Assembly: GCA_027618565.1 (NCBI GenBank)
Contig: JAQCEQ010000018.1
Location: forward strand, 1 to 54,687
Source: Planctomycetota bacterium
GTDB lineage: Bacteria > Planctomycetota > Phycisphaerae > Phycisphaerales > SM1A02
Length of the DNA stretch: 54,687 bases
Direction of reading: 5' to 3'
A program made the position numbers and the translations under genes. Positions 6,986 to 48,813 of this stretch are shown here, piece by piece (position 1 is the stretch's first letter; each line of letters starts with the position of its first letter). The notes beneath the pieces were generated by a model. It was not told the DNA's origin and made no database searches. It saw only the letters and a program-made list of their open reading frames with translations.

Positions 6986-7010
6986 CAGAGAGTCTTTTGG
7001 CACCTTGCCG

Positions 7011-7706
7011 TCAGCCGCGCACCGTGCGCTGCTCGATCCGCTTCACCGGGACGGTCACCACGATGCGATCGACGAAGATCCCTGGGGTGTGGACATGGTC
7101 GGGGTCCAGTTGGCCCGGCTCGACCAACTCCTCCACTTCGGCAACCGTCACGGCGCCAGCCGTGGCAGCCATGGGGTTGAAGTTCCGGGCTGTGCGCCGG
7201 AAGATGAGGTTTCCCGTCCGGTCGGCCTTCCAAGCCTTCACCAGTGCCAGGTCTGCCCGGATTCCGCGTTCGAGCACGAAACTCTCGCCGTCGAAGTCCA
7301 TGTGTGGCTTCCCCTCCGCGATCACCGTCCCCACGCCTGTTTTGGTGAAGAAGCCCGGAATGCCCGCGCCTCCGGCACGGAGCCTTTCGGCCAGGGTTCC
7401 CTGGGGGCAGAACTCAAGTTCCAGTTCGCCGCTCATGAACTGCCGCTCAAACTCTGCGTTCTCCCCCACATAACTGGACACCATCTTGCGGATCTGCCGG
7501 GTCTGCAGGAGCAGCCCCAACCCCCAATCGTCCACCCCGGCATTGTTGCTCACCGCCGTCAGGCCGCGAACACCGCTGTCGCGAAGGGCGACAATCAGTT
7601 GCTCCGGAATCCCGCACAGGCCAAACCCGCCCACCGCCACGGTCATGCCATCTCGAACGATGCCTTGAAGCGCGGAGGCGGGGGACTGGAAGACCTTGTT
7701 CAACAT
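7011..7706 (-). CDS. scoA: 3-oxoacid CoA-transferase subunit A
   Basis: This 231-residue protein matches the alpha subunit of succinyl-CoA:3-ketoacid CoA-transferase. These enzymes move CoA between succinyl-CoA and acetoacetate (or related acids) as alpha/beta pairs. Visible landmarks are [35 protein letters not shown], the glycine-rich [16 protein letters not shown] segment, and [22 protein letters not shown]. Length is normal for a separate A subunit. The catalytic glutamate is on subunit B, which normally follows A directly, often overlapping it. Here A is followed by 184 nt of non-coding DNA and an unrelated gene, and the gene upstream is divergent, so no B subunit is adjacent. The partner must be elsewhere or absent. 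Confidence 0.9.
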
Positions 7707-41018: not shown

Positions 41019-42106
41019 TGGCTGAACAGAAGTCCGCCACTCCACCCGCACCAAGGCCACTCCTTGAGGTGGCCGACCTGGCGGTGAGCTTTGACAACGC
41101 CGGCGGCCCCCGCATCCAGGCCGTCTGCGGCGTGAGCATGGCGCTGCACCGGCAGCAGACGCTGGCCGTGGTGGGGGAGTCCGGCTGCGGCAAGAGCGTC
41201 ACGGCCATGAGCGCGATGCAATTGGTGCCGCGCCCGCCAGGCCGCATTGACCGAGGATCGATCCTCTTCGAGGGGCAGGACCTCCTCTCGCTCACGGAAC
41301 AGCAGATGCTCAAGATTCGCGGCGGGAAGATCGCGATGATCTTCCAGGAGCCGATGACCAGCCTCAACCCGGTGTACACGATCGGTGACCAGATTCTGGA
41401 GGCGGTACACCTGCACCGGGACCTCTCGAAGGACGATGGCTGGGCGGCGGCGGTGAGCGCGCTGTCGGATGTGGGCATCCCGGAGCCGGAGTCCCGGATG
41501 TCACAGTATCCGCACCAATTCTCCGGCGGCATGCGCCAGCGGGTGATGATCGCGATGGCCCTGGCCTGCCAGCCCACGGTGCTCCTGGCGGACGAGCCCA
41601 CCACCGCGCTGGATGTCACGATCCAGGCGCAGATCCTGGATCTCCTCCGGCAGCTCCAGCGAACGCGCGACATGGGCATGATGCTCATCACGCACAATCT
41701 GGGAGTCGTCGCAGAAAACGCCGATGTCGTCTGCGTGATGTACGCCGGGCGTGTGGTGGAGTACGGCACCGTCTTCGACATCTTCGACCGGCCCCTGCAC
41801 CCGTACACGCGCGGACTGTTGCGGTCGATTCCTGGGTTGCACGAGACCAAGCACCGGCTGGTCACCGTGGACGACATCGTGAACGACCCCGCGGAGTACC
41901 GCAAGCTGCCCGGCCACGCCAAGGGCATGGTGCCCTGGTGGCCGTTCATGCCCGAGGGTGCCACGCCCGCGCTGGTGCCCGACCGCGACGTCTACGCGCT
42001 GGTGGAAGTGGAACCCAATCGATGGCTTGGCCTGTGGCGGAGCGAACACGTTGACTCGCTTGGCGCCAGGCGCCCTGACCTGGACTACCGGCGCACCGAT
42101 CGATGA
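41018..42106 (+). CDS. Oligopeptide ABC transporter ATP-binding protein (OppD/DppD type)
   Basis: This 362-residue ATPase has Walker [16 protein letters not shown] (about 54-68), Q-loop [16 protein letters not shown], signature [16 protein letters not shown], Walker [17 protein letters not shown] and the switch His in [14 protein letters not shown]. The C-terminal extension of OppD/DppD types begins at [13 protein letters not shown] but lacks the conserved Cys-rich (CxxRCP...C) motif: no cysteines appear after the signature. OppF/DppF is not next door, although most such importers use a D/F heterodimer. The gene overlaps oppC and dut by 1 and 4 nt. Confidence 0.94.
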
Positions 42107-42555
42107 GCGCCGAACGCCCAACAATCTCATTCCAGGTGCTGAGCACGCTTGCCGTTGTGCCCCAGTACCAGACGGAGCACGCCGCGGGCATGGACATCCA
42201 TGCCGCCATCGCCGAGTCGATCACGCTCAGGCCGCACGAGATCGCGCTGGTTCCTAGCGGCCTGGCGATGGAGATTCCCGTGGGGTTCGAGGCGCAGATT
42301 CGCCCGCGAAGCGGTCTCTCATGCAAGCACGGCATCACGGTCCCCAATGCTCCCGGCACGATTGACGCGGACTATCGCGGCGAGGTCAAGATCGCCCTCA
42401 TCAATCTTTCCACCGTCGATTTCACGATCGAGCCCGGCATGCGCATCGCGCAGATGGTGGTCGCGCCGGTGGCGCATGCCACGGTGCAGGTCGTGGCGTC
42501 GCTCAGCGAAACGGCGCGGGGCACGGGCGGCTTTGGTTCCACGGGGCATCGGTAG
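42103..42555 (+). CDS. dut: Deoxyuridine 5'-triphosphate nucleotidohydrolase (dUTPase)
   Basis: This 150-residue trimeric dUTPase converts dUTP to dUMP. All five motifs are seen: 1 AGMDIHAAI, 2 [11 protein letters not shown], 3 [15 protein letters not shown] (with catalytic Asp), 4 [10 protein letters not shown], 5 [12 protein letters not shown] (the mobile C-terminal arm). It is full length. Its start overlaps the ATPase stop (ATGA), so it is probably translated with the transporter although the functions are unrelated. The next gene is convergent (24 nt between stops). Confidence 0.97.
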
Positions 42556-42578: not shown

Positions 42579-44423
42579 TCACTCCTCCCGGCACGCCTCC
42601 CTGAGCTCCTCGGCGAGCGACGAGAGGACGGCTTGCGCCGCGAGGGCCGACGTGGCATCCTTCGATTGGCGCGCGTGTCGCTCCGAGAGCCGGGCGCGAG
42701 TGAGTCGCTCCAAGAGCGCCCGGGACCCGGCCAGGACAGCGTTGGCACCCGGCGCCGCAAGGACTCGAGCCAGGATCGATTCTCCGGCAGGTGGGAGTTC
42801 ATCCGCACTGCGGGCAAGCGCGCGACAGAGGATCGACGCGACCGTCGCGTCGGGAATCGCCGATCGAGCCTCCACCAAGATCGGTTCGGCGGAAGTCAGG
42901 TCTCCCCGAGTGAGGTCGTCCCTCGCCACACGTACGGCGCCGCGCAGGCGCGAGAGCCCCGCGAGGTTTCCCCCCGGTGCCGGCTCCCAGCCGCCCCATC
43001 GCGGGAGCATGGCCACCGCCTCCGGCGTCAATGCATCCACGAGCGACGCCCACTCATGCACGTCCAGGTACAGCCTGAGCGTCGCCGCGAGTGCATCCGC
43101 CTCGTGGCCACCCTCCGTGATCGCCACGGCCCACCTGCGGCGCATCTCCAAGGCCGCCAGCCGAAAGGCGCCATCCGGCGGTGTCTCGCCAACGACGGGG
43201 GCGTCCAGCGTGGTGGATCGCACGAAGAGGTCGATCACTTCCGGGTCGGCCCGGGGCAGGCGTCGCGCCAAGGCCTGCCGGAGGGTTGGCGAGACCGCCG
43301 CGCCTTCGATGCCTCGATCCAGTTCCTGCCATCGCACCTTGGTGATGGTGGCGCGTCGGCACGATGCGGTGGGCTCTTCCAGCGCACGCCATCGATCCCC
43401 CTGATCGATGCCGGGCGAGGCCAGCGCTGTGGCCATCGCGACAGAGAGCGCACCGTGTGCGTCCACCAGGTCGATGGACGACTGGCGGGCCTGCTCCGCG
43501 AATCGACGGGGTGTGGGTGCCTCCCGCGCTGCAGCCGAGTGCTCCAGGGCCAGGACCGACTCACACAGGACTTCCAGGCGTGCGGGCAGCGAACGGAGGG
43601 TGCCGATGCGTGTCTGGTGCGAGAGCACCTGCGCGATAGTGGCCGATTCGAACCGCCGGAACAGCCCCGCTTGGGCACCCTGGACCGCTTTGGACGATTG
43701 ACCGCGCTCGACGATGGCGTGCAGGTCCACCAGTGACTGCGCGGAGGCGAAAACGACTTCATGGGAACCCTTCGATGCCACCAGCTGGCGCCACTCGGCC
43801 ACCAGCGGGGCGAGCGAGGCCCACGGTTCCGATGCCGCGGGCGGGGAAGTGATCGCCGAGAGCAATTCCAACGGCGACTCGGAGCCGCTCCCGGGCCACG
43901 CGGACCCAAGATCGGCCCCCGAGGGAAGGATGGCGCGCAGCGGCCACAGCATCTCGGCCAGTGCATCGTCGCACTCCCACCCCGAGGCATCCGGTGCCAG
44001 CGATCGCACGGGAGCCAGGCCGATGGCTTCCATCGCCGACACGGCGTGCGAGACGCGCGCAGCATCCGCCGGCCCGAGCGCTTCGACGCGAGCCAACCGA
44101 TCGCGAAGGTTGGGGACCAGGGCCAGTGCGGTGAGTGCGGTGATCGTGCCGTCGGCATGGGGAGATTCCAGCGCGGCAGCGCGGGTCAGCAATGTGTGGG
44201 CGGCGGCCGTGAGGAGGGCGCTCGCGCGGTCGCTTGCCCTCCGTGTGGCCCCGGCGGGCGTCCCCACGCCGCCGTCCACCACCGCCGCCAATTCAGCGAG
44301 GGCGGCTGAGCCGGCGCTCCACGCTTGCGTTCGTTCGCCTTGGCATGCCGCCGGCACCGGTGCGCTCGACAACCACGACACCACCGTCATCGACCCCGAT
44401 GCCAGCCAAGCCATCAGGCACAT
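42579..44423 (-). CDS. Large exported helical protein, function unknown
   Basis: This 614-residue protein starts at ATG 44423, which has GGAG 8 nt upstream; ATG 44414 would be three residues shorter. The N-terminus (MCLMAWLASGSMTVVSWLSS) looks like a signal peptide ending near PVPAAC|QGERTQ, where the Cys could be a poor lipobox. The rest is a Leu/Ala/Arg-rich, helical, repetitive-looking protein without catalytic motifs. The stretches LSVAMATALASPGIDQGDRW and PLVAEWRQLVASKGSHEVVF show TPR- or HEAT-like spacing but I could not define repeats. It overlaps the truA stop by 10 nt and is the last gene of the murD-ispF operon. Confidence 0.7.
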   Translation of the reverse strand: MCLMAWLASGSMTVVSWLSSAPVPAACQGERTQAWSAGSAALAELAAVVDGGVGTPAGATRRASDRASALLTAAAHTLLTRAAALESPHADGTITALTALALVPNLRDRLARVEALGPADAARVSHAVSAMEAIGLAPVRSLAPDASGWECDDALAEMLWPLRAILPSGADLGSAWPGSGSESPLELLSAITSPPAASEPWASLAPLVAEWRQLVASKGSHEVVFASAQSLVDLHAIVERGQSSKAVQGAQAGLFRRFESATIAQVLSHQTRIGTLRSLPARLEVLCESVLALEHSAAAREAPTPRRFAEQARQSSIDLVDAHGALSVAMATALASPGIDQGDRWRALEEPTASCRRATITKVRWQELDRGIEGAAVSPTLRQALARRLPRADPEVIDLFVRSTTLDAPVVGETPPDGAFRLAALEMRRRWAVAITEGGHEADALAATLRLYLDVHEWASLVDALTPEAVAMLPRWGGWEPAPGGNLAGLSRLRGAVRVARDDLTRGDLTSAEPILVEARSAIPDATVASILCRALARSADELPPAGESILARVLAAPGANAVLAGSRALLERLTRARLSERHARQSKDATSALAAQAVLSSLAEELREACREE

Positions 44424-45214
44424 TGCTCGGTCTCCAGCGGCACTTCTCGCGGATAGTGCACCCACTCCAGGCACAGTCCCTGGGGCGGCATCGTGGGGCC
44501 GGCCAGCGTGCGATCCCCGGTCGCGAGGATTCGCCGAATCCCGTCCGTGTCCATGCGCCCGCGCCCCACCTCCACAAGCGTTCCCACGATGATGCGGACC
44601 ATGTTGTAGAGGAATCCGTCGCCTTGCACGCTCACGCGGATGATCCCCTCGGGCCCGCGCGAGACATCGCAGGCGTGGACCGTGCGCACCGTGGTCTCCT
44701 TGCCCTCCGTCTGGCCGGCGAGCCCCTTGAAGTCGTGTTGCCCCACCAGCAGGCCGGCGGCGGCCTGCATTGCTCCCAGCTCCAAATCGTGCACAACTTC
44801 CGTCACAAACCGCGACTCGAACGGGTGCGTTCGGTGGCCGTGCCGGCATCCGTCACGCAGCGCATATCGGTACCGCTTCGTGTCGCAATCGCGGATCGGG
44901 TCAAACCCGTCGCTCACACGCACCGCCGCGCGAATCTGGATGTCTCGAGGGAGCCGTGCGTTGAGGGCGGCGGTCAGTCGGCCAGCGGGCACATCGACGG
45001 GGACCGCAAAACTGGCACACTGCCCCTCGGCGTGTACGCCGGCATCGGTGCGGCTGGCGCCCACCACCGGGACGGCATGCTTGATCGCACTAGTGACCGC
45101 CTGCTCCACGCACCATTGCACGGTGCGCAGTGGCTGGCCGTCCGCGCCAAGCTGTCGCTGCCAGCCGTGGAAGTCCGTCCCGTCGTACGCGATGATGAGC
45201 CGGTAGCGAGGCAT
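44414..45214 (-). CDS. truA: tRNA pseudouridine(38-40) synthase TruA
   Basis: This 266-residue protein makes pseudouridine at tRNA positions 38-40. It begins MPRYRLIIAYDGTDFHGWQR, the family N-terminus, and has the catalytic-Asp motif VVGASRTDAGVHAEGQCASF. Other family blocks are NARLPRDIQIRAAV, RYRYALRDG, HDFKGLAGQTEGKETTVRT and GDGFLYNMVRIIVGTLVEVG. Complete and of normal length. It lies 15 nt downstream of the nucleotide-binding protein gene on the same strand. Confidence 0.97.
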   Translation of the reverse strand: MPRYRLIIAYDGTDFHGWQRQLGADGQPLRTVQWCVEQAVTSAIKHAVPVVGASRTDAGVHAEGQCASFAVPVDVPAGRLTAALNARLPRDIQIRAAVRVSDGFDPIRDCDTKRYRYALRDGCRHGHRTHPFESRFVTEVVHDLELGAMQAAAGLLVGQHDFKGLAGQTEGKETTVRTVHACDVSRGPEGIIRVSVQGDGFLYNMVRIIVGTLVEVGRGRMDTDGIRRILATGDRTLAGPTMPPQGLCLEWVHYPREVPLETEQCA

Positions 45215-45229: not shown

Positions 45230-46366
45230 TCAGGCGCCAAAGAGCGAGGCCGGCGGGGCCATCATGCCCTTCGCCTCAAACCAGGCGAGTGCCTCGTCCA
45301 CGGTGCGGAAGATCTTCGTGGCCGTCTCCGTGATGAACGGGCTTGGACTCTTGGTGGGCTTCCAGACCACATACACCTCCTTGGCATGCTCGAACGCGTG
45401 ATGCAGCTCGCGCTCCACGCCGCTGGAAAGCCCCGGGATGCCGCCGGGCAGTTCCGGGACCAAGGAGACGATCATGTCCGACTGGTCCACCAGCCGGAAG
45501 TCGCGCATGTAAATCTGGCCGTCGATGTCACCGGCGATGTCCAGCACTTCGCGCACGGGGAGCCGCTGAGGCGCCGCGCCTGCACGAGCACCGTACGCGT
45601 GCGAAGTGATCTCCACGAAGTCCTTGCCATCGCGGGCCGCAGCGATCGCGCGGTCCAGGAGGAGCTTTTCGTCCACATCCGCGGGGTCGAAGGTGATGAA
45701 GTGTTCCGCCAGTGCGGCCCGGAACCTCGAGATCTCCTCTAGGACATCCGGCATGTCGACCACATGCGACATCGGGAAGCTGGGATACACCTTTCGCATC
45801 CCGGGTCGAGTCACCAGGCGCAGGCAGGTTTCCGCGGTGTCCTGGTGCCGTCCGCGCGACAGGATGAAGAACTGGTCGCGGCATCCCAGTCCCTGTGCCA
45901 TGAGCTCCGTGGCCAGGATCTCTTCCTCCCGCCAGACCATGCAGTCCTTGAGCGTGGCGTCGATCGAGTGCTCCGCGTGGAGGCGCCGGTGGATTTCCTC
46001 GATGTTGTCCACCAGGCAGATGAACATCGATGGCGAGAACAGTTCCAGCTGGTCAAAGTCAAACGCCGAGAAGAGCCCGTGCCGCCACCGGAAGGTGGCA
46101 TGGGTGTTCACGATCACGTTGGGGTGGTCGCGCAGCGGGTGCGACCGCGAGATGATGTCCTTGAAGGCCGCTCGCCGGAGGCTCCCCAGCCGCGAGATCG
46201 GCAGGTCCAGGATGTGCCCCGCACGGACATCCGGGGCCTCGGTGTACATCATCTCGCCGATGTTGAACAGGTCAATCCCGTCGCCCCTGGCACCGCCGAG
46301 GTCAACCACTCGTTCAAGGTAGGCCCGCTTGTCCAGACCCACCTGGCCGGTGACGATCGCTCGCAT
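45230..46366 (-). CDS. Nucleotide kinase-like / deoxyribosyltransferase-like two-domain protein
   Basis: This 378-residue protein starts MRAIVTGQVGLDKRAYLERV, a P-loop-like segment (TGQVGLDK, 6-13) that has lost the Gly-Lys-Ser/Thr end of a normal Walker A. Residues about 85-130 (VIVNTHATFRWRHGL, FSPSMFICLVDNIEEIHRRL) resemble archaeal adenylate kinases, which have a (V)DTH motif and an ALVE... segment. Residues 287-340 (MRDFRLVDQSDMIVSLVPEL, then GLSSGVERELHHAFEHAKEV) resemble the nucleoside 2-deoxyribosyltransferase fold, including a Ser-Gly-x-x-x-Glu pattern. Both resemblances are from motif recall. It sits between ispF and truA in an operon. Function is not known; nucleotide binding is plausible. 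Confidence 0.65.
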   Translation of the reverse strand: MRAIVTGQVGLDKRAYLERVVDLGGARGDGIDLFNIGEMMYTEAPDVRAGHILDLPISRLGSLRRAAFKDIISRSHPLRDHPNVIVNTHATFRWRHGLFSAFDFDQLELFSPSMFICLVDNIEEIHRRLHAEHSIDATLKDCMVWREEEILATELMAQGLGCRDQFFILSRGRHQDTAETCLRLVTRPGMRKVYPSFPMSHVVDMPDVLEEISRFRAALAEHFITFDPADVDEKLLLDRAIAAARDGKDFVEITSHAYGARAGAAPQRLPVREVLDIAGDIDGQIYMRDFRLVDQSDMIVSLVPELPGGIPGLSSGVERELHHAFEHAKEVYVVWKPTKSPSPFITETATKIFRTVDEALAWFEAKGMMAPPASLFGA

Positions 46367-46370
46367 CCTG

Positions 46371-46904
46371 TCAGCCTACCGGAGCGAGCAGCACAACCGC
46401 ATGGACCTCGATGGCGCGACCCTCGCCGATCGCATCGACCCCCTCGTGGGTCTTGCCCTTGATGTTGAGGCACTCGACGGGGCAGCCGATGACACTGGAC
46501 AGGTTGGCTCGGATCGCCTGGCGGTATGGCGCGATCTTGGGCGACTCGCAGACGACCGTGATGTCCGCATTGCCAAGCGAATAGCCGGCCGATCTCATCT
46601 CGCGCACGGCGTCGTGAAGGTAGCGCGTGGAGTCCTCTCCCAGGTGCGCCGCATCGGTGTCCGGGTACCGGGAACCGAGGTCCGGTGAAGCCATCGCGCC
46701 AAAGATGGCATCGACCAGCGCGTGGATGACTGCGTCACCGTCGGAGTGCGCGAGGGGTCCTCGTGCACTCGGGATCGCCACGCCACCCAGCACCATGCGG
46801 CGACCACCTCCCTCAGGCGCGACCGGTTCGAGGCGGTGCAGGTCGTAGCCGTGCCCCATGCGTGGCGTGCGAGCACCAACTCGCTGCGGTACGTTGCCAC
46901 TCAT
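46371..46904 (-). CDS. ispF: 2-C-methyl-D-erythritol 2,4-cyclodiphosphate synthase
   Basis: This 177-residue protein catalyses the cyclisation step in the MEP isoprenoid pathway. Landmarks: MGHGYDLHRLEP (zinc Asp-His pair), RGPLAHSDGDAVIHALVDAI (zinc His), PDTDAAHLGEDS and ADITVVCESPKIAPY. The C-terminal SSVIGCPVECLNIKGKTHEG includes the KGKT hydrophobic-cavity motif. An N-terminal tail of about 15 residues precedes the usual start. The ATG overlaps the lipoprotein stop by 4 nt and the next gene starts 4 nt after its own stop. Confidence 0.97.
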   Translation of the reverse strand: MSGNVPQRVGARTPRMGHGYDLHRLEPVAPEGGGRRMVLGGVAIPSARGPLAHSDGDAVIHALVDAIFGAMASPDLGSRYPDTDAAHLGEDSTRYLHDAVREMRSAGYSLGNADITVVCESPKIAPYRQAIRANLSSVIGCPVECLNIKGKTHEGVDAIGEGRAIEVHAVVLLAPVG

Positions 46905-47365
46905 CCGTCGTAAATGTTGGGGTCGGTAGAGGCGGGGACCAGTCCAGCCCCCGAGCGATCGTCCGTCCGCAGACGGTGCGCCGGGTCATCGGGCACCGTC
47001 TCGGGCCCGGGCCGCAGGTAGTAATCCACGCGCCGGCACGGGGCCGCCGGGACTGACAGCGTGTTGCGAAGTCGACCCGTCTTGGTGCCGATGGGCATGA
47101 GCCCCCAGAGCATCCGGTCTGGGGCCTGCGATGGGTCATCGCCTCCGTCCTCCACGAACTTGTAGGAGAACTGCTGTTGCGGCGGCACATCCAGCTCGAA
47201 GAAGACTTCTTCGCGGCAGGCATCCGTCATCCTGATGGTGACGGGTTCCATCGGTGTGGAGTAATACGTCTGGGCACTCTTCGGGCCAGGCAAAAGGCCT
47301 CCCTTGGGCGAGTAGCAGCCGGCCAGGAAGCAGGTGAGTCCCAAGACGGTGGCGGTCCGCATCAT
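46901..47365 (-). CDS. Predicted lipoprotein, function unknown
   Basis: From the ATG at 47365 this 154-residue protein has a lipoprotein signal MMRTATVLGLTCFLAGCYSP with lipobox LAGC (Cys17). The mature part is short and polar, with YYSTPMEPVTIRMTDACREE, PAAPCRRVDYYLRPG and a tail DPNIYDG. It contains three Cys besides the lipid-attached one. Lipidated Cys followed by Tyr-Ser suggests outer-membrane sorting if Lol rules apply. The start is inside the murD stop (ATGATG). No family was recognised. The alternative longer frame to 47560 lies inside murD and is rejected. Confidence 0.75.
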   Translation of the reverse strand: MMRTATVLGLTCFLAGCYSPKGGLLPGPKSAQTYYSTPMEPVTIRMTDACREEVFFELDVPPQQQFSYKFVEDGGDDPSQAPDRMLWGLMPIGTKTGRLRNTLSVPAAPCRRVDYYLRPGPETVPDDPAHRLRTDDRSGAGLVPASTDPNIYDG

Positions 47366-48813
47366 GGCGCCATCGTATCGGCGCGAGGCACCAGATCGCG
47401 GGAGGATTGGCAGAGTGCCGCGAAGGCCTCGCCGCGCGCCTCGAAGTCCCGGAACTGGTCCCAGCTCGCACAGCCCGGGCTCAGGAGGATGATGTCGCCA
47501 GGCTGGGCTCTGGCGCACGCGCGTTGGACGGCCGTGTCCAGGGTCGCGCAGTCGCTCCACGATTCCGGCAGGGCGATCGCCGAGCCAGTCTGTCCGATGG
47601 CGTAGAGCCCAGCCAGTTGGGGTCCGAGGTCGCGAAGCGACTGGAGGTCGATCCCCTTGTCGTATCCGCCCGCGATGAGGTGGATGCGTGCTGGATCGGG
47701 AAACGCCGCGATGGCCAGACGGGTGCTGGCGGGAGTCGTGCTCTTGGAGTCGTTGTAGAACCGGAGGCCGTCGTGTTCGCCGACGAATTCGAGGCGATGC
47801 GGGAGGCCCCGGAACCGGGCGATCGCAGCCCGGGCGGCGGCGTGGTCAAAGCGGGCGGCCCCATCGCGCGCTCCCGAGTGCTGGTCTCCGGAGCGGTGCT
47901 GAGCGACCGCCTCCAATGCCGCGATCGCCAGCGCGGCGTTCTCACGGTTGTGCGCCCCCGCGAGATGCAGGGCCGGCGGTTCCGGCAGGCGGCTGGGGTC
48001 CAGCGGCCACCACGGTTCGCTGGCCAAATGCCTCCGCAAGGCGGCGGTCCTCGCCGCGTCCTGCGCGCTCAGGAATCGACTGGCGCCACCGTCCTCCGGG
48101 ACGATCCCCGCCTTGGACTGCACGTAGTGCTGCAGCGAACCATGCCAGTCCACATGGTTCGGCGCGAGGTTGGTGAGGACGCCGATCGTGGGAGCCCAGC
48201 GAGCCGTTCCCATGCCTCCCCACTCCCGCGCTTGGGCACTGAGCCACCACAGCTGCGCGGAGGAGAGTTCCAGCACCAGCCACTCTGGCCGTGGCCCGTT
48301 CGCGAGCACGCGATCCAAGAGGCTTCCGCCGATATTGCCGCCGAGCCACGCATCAACGCCCGCGGCGCGGATGCCTTCGTCGACCAGTGAAGTCGTCGTG
48401 GATTTGCCGGCGCTGCCCGTGACGGCGATGGTGGGAACGCCCTCTAGCTCGCGCAGCGCAAGTGCGATTTCAGTCGTCACGATGCTTCCCGCCGCGCGCG
48501 CCTGGGTCAGCAGCGCGTTCTGCCAAGGCATCGGGACTGCCGCGCTGGCCACGACGAGCGCCGCGCCCTCAATGTCGCTGGGGTCCTGCGAGTCGGTGCG
48601 AACCGTGACGTGACCCTCACGCACCAGGCCGGCGATGGAATCGAGGCTCTCCGCAAGTCGGCTCGCCGAGGCGCGGTCGCTCACATGGATGCGCGCACCC
48701 TGCGCGGCGAGCCAGCGAATCGCCCCCAAGCTCCCGCCAAAGCGACCAAGCCCGACGACCGCCACACGCGCACCGCGGAGTTCTGGGAGCGGGGACCAAA
48801 GTGAGGATGTCAT
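47362..48813 (-). CDS. murD: UDP-N-acetylmuramoylalanine--D-glutamate ligase MurD
   Basis: This 483-residue protein adds D-Glu to UDP-MurNAc-L-Ala in peptidoglycan synthesis. Landmarks: VAVVGLGRFGGSLGAIRWLA (UDP-binding domain), the ATP P-loop IAVTGSAGKSTTTSL, LVLELSSAQLWW, TNLAPNHVDWHGSLQHYVQ, LPHRLEFVGEHDGLRFYNDS, KSTTP, and LLSPGCASWDQFRDFEARGE. All are MurD-specific (ELSSxQL; SPxxxSxDxFxxFExRG). Peptidoglycan is therefore made, as now accepted for planctomycetes. It is 12 nt after the DUF4190-like gene and overlaps the lipoprotein gene. Confidence 0.96.
   Translation of the reverse strand: MTSSLWSPLPELRGARVAVVGLGRFGGSLGAIRWLAAQGARIHVSDRASASRLAESLDSIAGLVREGHVTVRTDSQDPSDIEGAALVVASAAVPMPWQNALLTQARAAGSIVTTEIALALRELEGVPTIAVTGSAGKSTTTSLVDEGIRAAGVDAWLGGNIGGSLLDRVLANGPRPEWLVLELSSAQLWWLSAQAREWGGMGTARWAPTIGVLTNLAPNHVDWHGSLQHYVQSKAGIVPEDGGASRFLSAQDAARTAALRRHLASEPWWPLDPSRLPEPPALHLAGAHNRENAALAIAALEAVAQHRSGDQHSGARDGAARFDHAAARAAIARFRGLPHRLEFVGEHDGLRFYNDSKSTTPASTRLAIAAFPDPARIHLIAGGYDKGIDLQSLRDLGPQLAGLYAIGQTGSAIALPESWSDCATLDTAVQRACARAQPGDIILLSPGCASWDQFRDFEARGEAFAALCQSSRDLVPRADTMAP

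Follow-up and report, generated by a model that had tools for sequence, protein, structure and literature searches.

We analyzed a 54,687-nucleotide stretch of planctomycete DNA (class Phycisphaerae, order Phycisphaerales; assembly GCA_027618565.1, contig JAQCEQ010000018.1, positions 1 to 54,687 of the forward strand), hereafter the window. A gene on its minus strand codes for a 378-residue protein in which two domains are fused. The protein is predicted to be a 2'-deoxynucleoside-5'-monophosphate (dNMP) N-hydrolase of the DNPH1/RCL type, with an N-terminal pseudo-nucleoside-monophosphate (NMP) kinase domain of archaeal adenylate kinase descent; we put the probability of this reading at about 0.6. 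The candidate active site, the gene neighbors of some relatives, and a motif in the protein tail suggest a role in the cleaning or recycling of DNA precursors, and the protein is perhaps tethered to the sliding clamp. The relevant features, all on the minus strand, are as follows.

45230..46366, minus: pseudo-adenylate-kinase/DNPH1-like fusion gene, 378 amino acids, ATG start (open reading frame call, genome scans, AlphaFold model)
45803..46366, minus: N-terminal domain, residues 1-188, archaeal adenylate kinase fold (AAA_17, PDB profile, VIA-align)
46325..46351, minus: degenerate P-loop, residues 6-14, TGQVGLDKR (177-row alignment)
46106..46108, minus: N87, at the Asp of the archaeal adenylate kinase motif DTHA (PDB alignment; Asn in 177/177 rows)
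45263..45802, minus: C-terminal domain, residues 189-368, DNPH1/2'-deoxyribosyltransferase fold (Foldseek, VIA-align, hhalign)
45785..45787, minus: Y194, candidate for DNPH1 Y24/MilB F17, the deoxyribose-selecting position (VIA-align range 189 on DNPH1 19; 177/177 rows)
45500..45502, minus: D289, candidate acid for DNPH1 D80 (RDF motif; 177/177 rows)
45407..45427, minus: residues 314-320, SSGVERE, with S314 the candidate phosphate serine (DNPH1 S98, MilB S97) and E320 the candidate nucleophile (DNPH1 E104, MilB E103) (SxGxxxE; hhalign columns; 177/177 rows)
45341..45343, minus: S342, candidate for DNPH1 S128', the second phosphate serine, from the partner subunit (position only; 177/177 rows)
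45236..45244, minus: terminal LFG motif, residues 375-377, in a low-confidence tail (78/78 distinct relatives)

The gene is present in a single copy in its own genome (62 contigs, 96.8% complete), and within alignment A1 its product shares 50-92% identity with the 51 other sequences. It is therefore a real gene and not a chance open reading frame.

Domain Architecture

A full-length AlphaFold2 model built from 61 sequences (alignment A2) had a mean predicted local distance difference test score (pLDDT) of 85.5 and a predicted template modeling score (pTM) of 0.87. When this model was compared with the PDB by Foldseek, archaeal adenylate kinases came out on top (6ln3, E 4.9e-8), and the 2'-deoxyribosyltransferase 7o62 was found at rank 39 (E 2.3e-4). 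VIA-align matched residues 1-188 to 6ln3 (Z 17.7, root-mean-square deviation (rmsd) 2.7, 184 residues aligned); residues 188-368 were matched to 7o62 (Z 13.7, rmsd 1.9 A, 128 aligned). In the same full-model comparison, DNPH1 entries scored Z 10.8-12.3 and other transferases 10.4-11.7 (6evs 11.7, 1s2d 11.2). The C-terminal domain modeled alone (pLDDT 83.2, pTM 0.72) again matched 7o62 best (Z 14.8, rmsd 2.4, 132 aligned); an unnamed E. faecalis protein scored 13.6, many DNPH1/RCL entries lay at 12.4-14.2, and further named transferases reached 11.7-12.8. Differences in VIA-align Z of less than 1 were treated as ties.

The N-terminal fold is also recognized by sequence profiles. Pfam AAA_17 matched this half of the window protein at E 2.8e-8, above the curated cut-off, and was found in 52/52 A1 members at E up to 1, although in L163 its score was below the cut-off (23.7 bits vs 27). 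A PDB search with the A1 profile found archaeal adenylate kinases (6ln3, E 2.4e-10), while the NCBIfam archaeal adenylate kinase model PRK04040 gave E 4.6e-5 but only 23 bits, its cut-off of 155 not being reached. Among Pfam matches of the window protein at E up to 1, PF05014 (Nuc_deoxyrib_tr) was absent. An hhalign comparison with 18 planctomycete PF05014 proteins (A4) gave E 8.5e-4 at a probability of 24%, with SSGVEREL aligned on DSGTAWEV and E320 on a conserved Glu.

Thus, the fusion of an archaeal-adenylate-kinase-like half with a 2-deoxyribosyltransferase-like half, proposed in an initial annotation of the window, is borne out by the model and by fold searches, with profiles adding support for the N-terminal half and the sequence match of the C-terminal half being weak. 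We also looked for one continuous family; no single family in the searches spans the whole protein. A Foldseek search of BFVD yielded 14 matches at E up to 0.001, including single-domain proteins that were NDT-like (nucleoside 2'-deoxyribosyltransferase-like) or kinase-like; a few spanned most of the model at rmsd >15, and none was read as the same fusion. We also observed that residues 93-98 (46073-46090, minus strand), the THATFRWRHGLF stretch, are nearly invariant across the class, yet form the sole segment of the full model with pLDDT <50.

The N-Terminal Domain

Residue conservation was assessed in a 137-row set, from which proteins <330 amino acids and exact duplicates had been removed, and in a 177-row set made by adding 40 more sequences (genome G353 is in both parts). 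Alignments A1-A3 omit L017, whose start is truncated, and other loci left out to save space.

In relatives, the P-loop reads TGxxGxDK or DR, compared to the canonical GxxGxGK[ST]; the loop TGQVGLDK is thus broken, as had been claimed. PDB alignments set TGxxGxDKK against TGVPGVGKTT of archaeal adenylate kinases. G7 and G10 are present in 176/177 rows (one gap). Position 12 is Asp in 169 rows, Glu in 7, and Asn in 1; position 13 is Lys in 170 and Arg in 7 (among the 40 added sequences, the Arg rows are members of f96 and f101); position 14 is Lys in 135, Arg in 17, and other residues in the rest. The DTHA Asp, which serves the metal site in adenylate kinases, is replaced by Asn (N87) in all 177 rows. 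Thr predominates at position 138, and Lys occupies position 140 in 177/177 rows; we take these to be the putative sites of the adenylate kinase LID arginines. The THA part of the motif is kept and NxG is partly kept, with Asn in 78, His in 54, and Ser in 5 of 137 rows at position 35 and Gly in 137/137 at position 37. A canonical adk is encoded elsewhere in the same genome (PF00406, E 1.5e-25).

Judged by these residues, the N-terminal domain has lost the kinase signature. An active adenylate kinase was considered and rejected, on the basis of the residues seen in the PDB alignments and in the 177 rows.

Candidate Active Site of the C-Terminal Domain

Y194, D289, S314, S315, G316, E318, E320, and S342 are identical in 177/177 rows. 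D289 is part of an RDF motif and precedes the strand Asp D297 by eight residues; we assume that it corresponds to D80 of DNPH1. D280 is an invariant alternative (137/137 rows), and the D289 equivalence is less certain than that of E320. The initial annotation had called for checking the conservation of a C-terminal Glu. This residue is best read as E320, within SxGxxxE, rather than E318, both being present in every row; the annotation had also raised the absence of active-site residues from homologues, and all candidate residues were found in all 177 rows. S342 is 22 residues from E320, vs 24 in DNPH1, at the start of a short helix (343-348) in the model. Counting from Y194, M199 would take the stacking position, and position 200, where MilB has Arg23, is Ser or Thr. 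The position of S314 is Asp in 18/18 planctomycete PF05014 proteins (invariant D80 of A4).

Human DNPH1 uses a Y24, D80, and E104 triad and holds the phosphate with S98 and with S128' of the other subunit (PMC10603095). In MilB, S97 and G99 contact the phosphate, E103 is the nucleophile, and an F17Y change switches the substrate from cytidine monophosphate (CMP) to its deoxy form, dCMP (PMC4081090). Compared with these enzymes at the residue level, the hydrolase half looks intact.

deoC Is a Neighbor in Some Relatives

In some genomes of other orders, the gene directly downstream of the fusion gene is deoC (TIGR00126, E 3.3e-72). Among 80 other-order carriers with coordinates, 68 have deoC somewhere; in eight (G261, G361, G209, G157, G287, G057, G303, and G356), it follows immediately downstream in the same orientation, with 27-240 bases between the matched regions, and in six more, both genes are on one contig but non-adjacent, 136 kb to 2.4 Mb apart. 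Inspection of 14 junctions at the base level revealed a 4-base stop/start overlap in five (L100, L101, L102, L161, and L163), a 5-base gap in L160, and distances of 138-498 bases in L099, L172, and L211; L097, L167, L168, L169, and L178 were not resolvable from the listed start codons. Further deoC neighbors, beyond the 8/80, were seen in G418, G501, G558, G605, and G561, and at wider gaps in G618 and G537; these come from a further locus set of 30 genomes picked for diversity and for fragmentary matches.

On a 44-row tree drawn from the 137 rows, deoC adjacency requires five label changes, at least four of them on well-supported branches, and 0/500 shuffles gave a number as low. Adjacency occurs at three separate places: a clade of families f6, f7, f107, and f111; f5; and f103. 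Three single-contig genomes of family f6 have neither gene, and G605 and G561, of the same family, have both, adjacent. Across the class, deoC was found in 124/138 carriers vs 9/20 genomes without the fusion gene (Fisher p 1.2e-5, with relatedness ignored). DeoC consumes 2-deoxyribose 5-phosphate, so a deoC neighbor fits a hydrolase of which this compound is the product. Its release by DNPH1 has been described (PMC10603095).

Distribution

A scan of genome contigs yielded 351 relatives, the best 80 of which are 71-92% identical to the window protein. The titles of these 80 mostly name Planctomycetota, Phycisphaerae, or other planctomycetes, and several read only "uncultured bacterium" or "bacterium". 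One copy (L055), 75% identical to the window's, is on a contig titled Chitinophaga pinensis; the title is probably a mislabel.

Queried with the single sequence, 22/294 genomes of the phylum contained the fusion gene; the A1 profile (52 sequences) found it in 22/288, which are 21 genomes of the window's class and one, G223, outside it. G127 is the sole class genome among the listed non-matches, and 246 further non-matches were taken as outside the class, since the ranking seems to go from close to distant kin; on this basis, the count outside is 1 of about 266. Within the class itself, the profile matched 346/397 genomes and 259/284 good assemblies. Of the 51 class genomes with no match, the 20 listed span families f94, f100, f102, f108, f6, f96, f99, and f2. 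The G223 copy (contig C466; L096, L221) nests in the window's own order in the 44-row tree (99/91 with G077) and is on a 6.6-kb contig of an assembly of ~1020 contigs, and is therefore probably a contamination. Thus, the fusion gene is common in one planctomycete class and is not reliably seen outside it.

Two side observations concern individual copies. Genomes G426, G582, and G594 (family f104) have two matches each, the best at E about 1e-184 to 1e-189 vs about 1e-154 to 1e-171 in other f104 genomes; transfer or contamination is possible. In G439 (contig C1, 1671541-1672773), the match is broken at residue 257/259 inside one open frame, which points to an insertion in the C-terminal domain.

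Plasmid records, phage records, and viral contigs were searched, and no relative of the fusion protein was found in them. PADLOC had no match for the protein, and PHROGs had none for the window protein or L100; sub-threshold PHROGs matches were to an NDT for L171 (E 0.056) and to a family of unknown kind for L154 (E 0.33). We rejected a reading as a defense gene on the class-wide distribution together with the PADLOC and PHROGs outcomes.

A Terminal LF Motif

All 78 distinct sequences from the nearer loci (L001-L081) end in LFG plus one residue. An ending of LFG followed by 0-2 residues was found in 1/1048 mechanically called neighboring open reading frames vs 49/70 focal ones. In the nearer and own-order set, LF occurs in 106/107 C-terminal tails (shuffled mean 15, maximum 25), and among the other members in 9/29 (shuffled mean 1.3, maximum 6). 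The motif is C-terminal in f96, f101, f5 (QASLF), and f109, and N-terminal in f95 (TLFGK), f106 (QSSLFG, QTRLF), f104 (NLFA), and f99 (QKQLF), the N-terminal cases being read from the open frame with uncertain starts; near the C-terminus, members of f95, f104, and f106 additionally show QLNLL, QPDLL, or QKPLF. In a set of 40 sequences, 31 by our own reading carry LF in one tail, the exceptions being all eight of f98 and one of f104. In the survey of tails that includes the 78 sequences, the motif is missing in f6, f107, f111, f97, f98, and f105, in four of five f7 rows, and in individual f99 and f104 rows. Most of the main deoC-adjacent clade thus lacks it, but f5 and f103 have both features.

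The DnaE proteins of the class carry GQ-x-x-[LMF]-F at one aligned site in 20/23 cases (loci L263-L285; 24 genomes sampled, 23 main copies, with G298, split in two matches, and second copies omitted), and GQMDMF stands there in the window's genome; by the precedent of E. coli DnaE, this is presumably the clamp motif. The DnaE of members of f5, f7, f107, and some others has an FF version, e.g., GQMNFF. Bacterial clamp-binding proteins carry QL(S/D)LF (PMC9690074). Set against this motif, the window tail PASLFGA matches at S, L, and F and is missing the Gln, and relatives include QASLF, QVDLF, QSSLF, QKPLF, and QLNLL. In many families, the terminal motif resembles the presumed clamp-binding motif of their own DnaE, and we treat the clamp reading as a lead, not a result.

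Genes around the Fusion Gene

46371..46904, minus: ispF, next gene upstream, 4 bases from the fusion gene (Pfam YgbB, 3.1e-51)
44414..45214, minus: truA, next gene downstream, 15 bases from the fusion gene (Pfam PseudoU_synth_1, 3.3e-39)
47362..48813, minus: murD-like Mur ligase gene in the same-strand cluster (Pfam Mur_ligase_M 3.8e-13, Mur_ligase_C 1.4e-10)

A housekeeping setting with ispF, truA, and murD had been proposed from the sequence, and Pfam confirms these neighbors. Their conservation was surveyed in 64 of the 80 loci L002-L081 (those >8 kb) and in the 40 loci L183-L222, using mechanical open reading frames and BLAST clusters; the focal gene was missed in part of the loci. The murD, truA, and ispF clusters occurred in 38, 33, and 21 surveyed loci, respectively, and in 0/40 of L183-L222, which are from more distant genomes, six own-order ones among them. 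Since it is confined to the window's nearer relatives, the setting says little about function, and we do not use it as evidence of function.

About 2.7 kb away from the fusion gene, the opposite strand carries a dUTPase gene (42103-42555, plus strand; PF00692, E 1e-33). A dUTPase-like cluster recurs in 32/64 nearer loci and in none of L183-L222; dUTPase makes dUMP (deoxyuridine monophosphate), which may be a dNMP substrate of the fusion protein. A BshB1-like deacetylase is downstream in 34/64 nearer loci (in L028 at 6991-7668; TIGR04001, E 1e-51, just below the cut-off).

Discussion

In the mechanism that we propose, a dNMP would bind in the C-terminal pocket, probably between two subunits, with S314 and the partner subunit's S342 holding the 5'-phosphate and Y194 selecting the deoxyribose. 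E320 would attack C1', while D289 would protonate the leaving base, so that Y194, D289, and E320 would cleave the N-glycosidic bond by double displacement and the glycosyl-E320 intermediate would then be hydrolyzed. The reaction is predicted to yield a free base and, for use by DeoC, 2-deoxyribose 5-phosphate. The N-terminal domain retains part of its NMP-side motifs and has a rewritten ATP side; most likely, it binds a nucleotide without phosphorylating it, and more tentatively, it may act as a nucleotide-binding regulatory, substrate-presenting, or assembly module. The initial annotation had suggested a role in nucleotide handling or sensing. We narrow this to predicted dNMP hydrolysis because of the phosphate-site Ser, the Tyr (Y194) at the deoxy-selecting position, and the deoC neighbor in some relatives.

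Several observations weigh against assignment as a dNMP hydrolase. PF05014 was found in just 6/52 A1 members at E up to 1 (best 0.087), and its cut-off was reached in 0/41 near-relative genomes. A sequence profile of the C-terminal half retrieved neither an NDT nor a DNPH1 chain from the PDB (E up to 10), the one match being to a GTPase (E 0.49); the assignment of this half therefore rests on fold. Fold search cannot firmly part hydrolases from transferases, least of all with the full model, because the differences in Z are ties. The candidate residue equivalences were drawn from motifs, spacing, the weak hhalign match (24%), and aligned ranges, and the E55/H56 element of DNPH1 has no established counterpart (D230 and E233 were considered). 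As for deoC, it is present in 56/58 own-order carriers and adjacent in 0/58 (in G077, it is 3.4 kb off, on the other strand), it is not adjacent in 72/80 other-order carriers, 14/138 carriers have no deoC match, and the class-wide association was computed irrespective of kinship.

One alternative is that the C-terminal domain is a transferase, passing deoxyribose or its 5-phosphate from base to base in the manner of nucleoside 2'-deoxyribosyltransferases and of phage DmtZ with the Z base. The top fold match, 7o62, is annotated as a 2'-deoxyribosyltransferase, the full-length comparison hardly separates transferases from DNPH1, and DmtZ is itself a DNPH1-like enzyme able to do both (PMC12884076). 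We nevertheless consider a transferase unlikely, given Ser at the phosphate site vs Asp in all 18 planctomycete PF05014 proteins, the many DNPH1 entries among C-domain fold matches, and a DeoC neighbor that fits the release of 2-deoxyribose 5-phosphate. The same domain could instead bind a dNMP or deoxyribose phosphate without turnover, as a regulator; the kinase half, visibly without a catalytic signature, makes a binding-only role conceivable in this protein, but none of the candidate catalytic residues in the C-terminal half varies among the 177 rows while the P-loop Lys drifts, and we regard this possibility as quite improbable.

It is even harder to argue that both halves are active, the N-terminal domain phosphorylating NMPs via an unusual P-loop and the C-terminal domain editing the product. 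The retention of the P-loop Lys in 170/177 rows, the many invariant N-terminal residues, and AAA_17 in 52/52 members at E up to 1 (with L163 below cut-off) would agree with such an enzyme, but Gly is replaced by Asp, Glu, or Asn at position 12 and Ser/Thr mostly by Lys or Arg at position 14, Asn stands for the DTHA Asp in every row, Thr138 and Lys140 stand at the putative sites of the LID Arg residues, the P-loop Lys is lost in 7/177 rows, and the genome has a canonical adk in another place. Finally, folds of this kind occur in NADase defense proteins (compare PMC13174449), and the protein could be a nucleotide or NAD sensor or effector (a TIR-like NADase or defense protein) rather than a housekeeping hydrolase. 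With no PADLOC match, no PHROGs match for the window protein, no relative in plasmid or phage records or viral contigs, and the gene carried by 346/397 class genomes, the chance of this is very slim.

A dNMP hydrolase thus remains our preferred reading. A bolder and, in its entirety, doubtful extension of it is a class-wide replisome-tethered enzyme, in which a dead adenylate kinase would sense or present dNMPs and thereby guide the dNMP N-hydrolase. In many families, LF would tie this enzyme to the sliding clamp, where it would destroy unwanted (e.g., damaged or modified) dNMPs near the fork, with deoxyribose 5-phosphate passing to DeoC. If the hydrolase assignment is true, the protein would be a chromosomally conserved bacterial counterpart, in a new architecture, of DNPH1, the human nucleotide-pool sanitizer, and a nucleotide hydrolase would include a pseudo-nucleotide-kinase among its modules. 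Because of the deoC linkage, the predicted reaction is open to direct testing; the terminal motif leads to the prediction, likewise testable, of a coupling between pool sanitation and the replication clamp; and the domain fusion marks one planctomycete class.

Comparison with Known Systems

In our searches of the open-licence PMC literature, which most subscription papers are outside of, we found no description naming this fusion. By fold and residues, the protein is a divergent DNPH1 relative that scores below the curated PF05014 threshold and does not have the signature of a functional adenylate kinase. Its N-terminal domain shares the fold of archaeal adenylate kinases (6ln3, 1nks, OdinAK; Z 15-17.7 over residues 1-188), but has the P-loop, the DTHA Asp, and the LID arginines (at their putative sites) replaced and a second domain fused to it. 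With human and rat DNPH1/RCL, it has in common the fold of residues 188-368 and, at matching positions, the candidate Tyr, Asp, and Glu triad and the candidate phosphate serine S314, with S342 a possible counterpart of the second phosphate serine. The matched DNPH1 chains, however, are single-domain proteins of about 120-145 residues, their identity to the window C-domain in structural alignments is 18-21%, and they have 24 residues between Asp and Glu, compared to 31 between the candidates here. MilB, a CMP/hydroxymethyl-CMP N-glycosidase, has the family fold (4jem, Z 11.8) and S-x-G-x-x-x-E as well, but it has Phe, for ribose, at the Y194 position and Arg23 for the hydroxymethyl group (PMC4081090); the fusion protein and its relatives have Tyr at the former position and Ser or Thr at 200.

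Two known fusions offer the closest parallels in architecture. In phage DmtZ-DutZ (NDT-like and dUTPase-like), a DNPH1-like domain is also joined to another domain of nucleotide metabolism, but that system is a phage one and the partner is an active dUTPase-like enzyme (PMC12884076), whereas here the partner is a chromosomal pseudo-adenylate kinase. The HGPRT/adenylate kinase fusion of Zobellia likewise combines an adenylate kinase domain with a base-handling enzyme; there, both domains are reported to be active and the partner is a phosphoribosyltransferase (PMC7326950), unlike the predicted dNMP hydrolase of the window.

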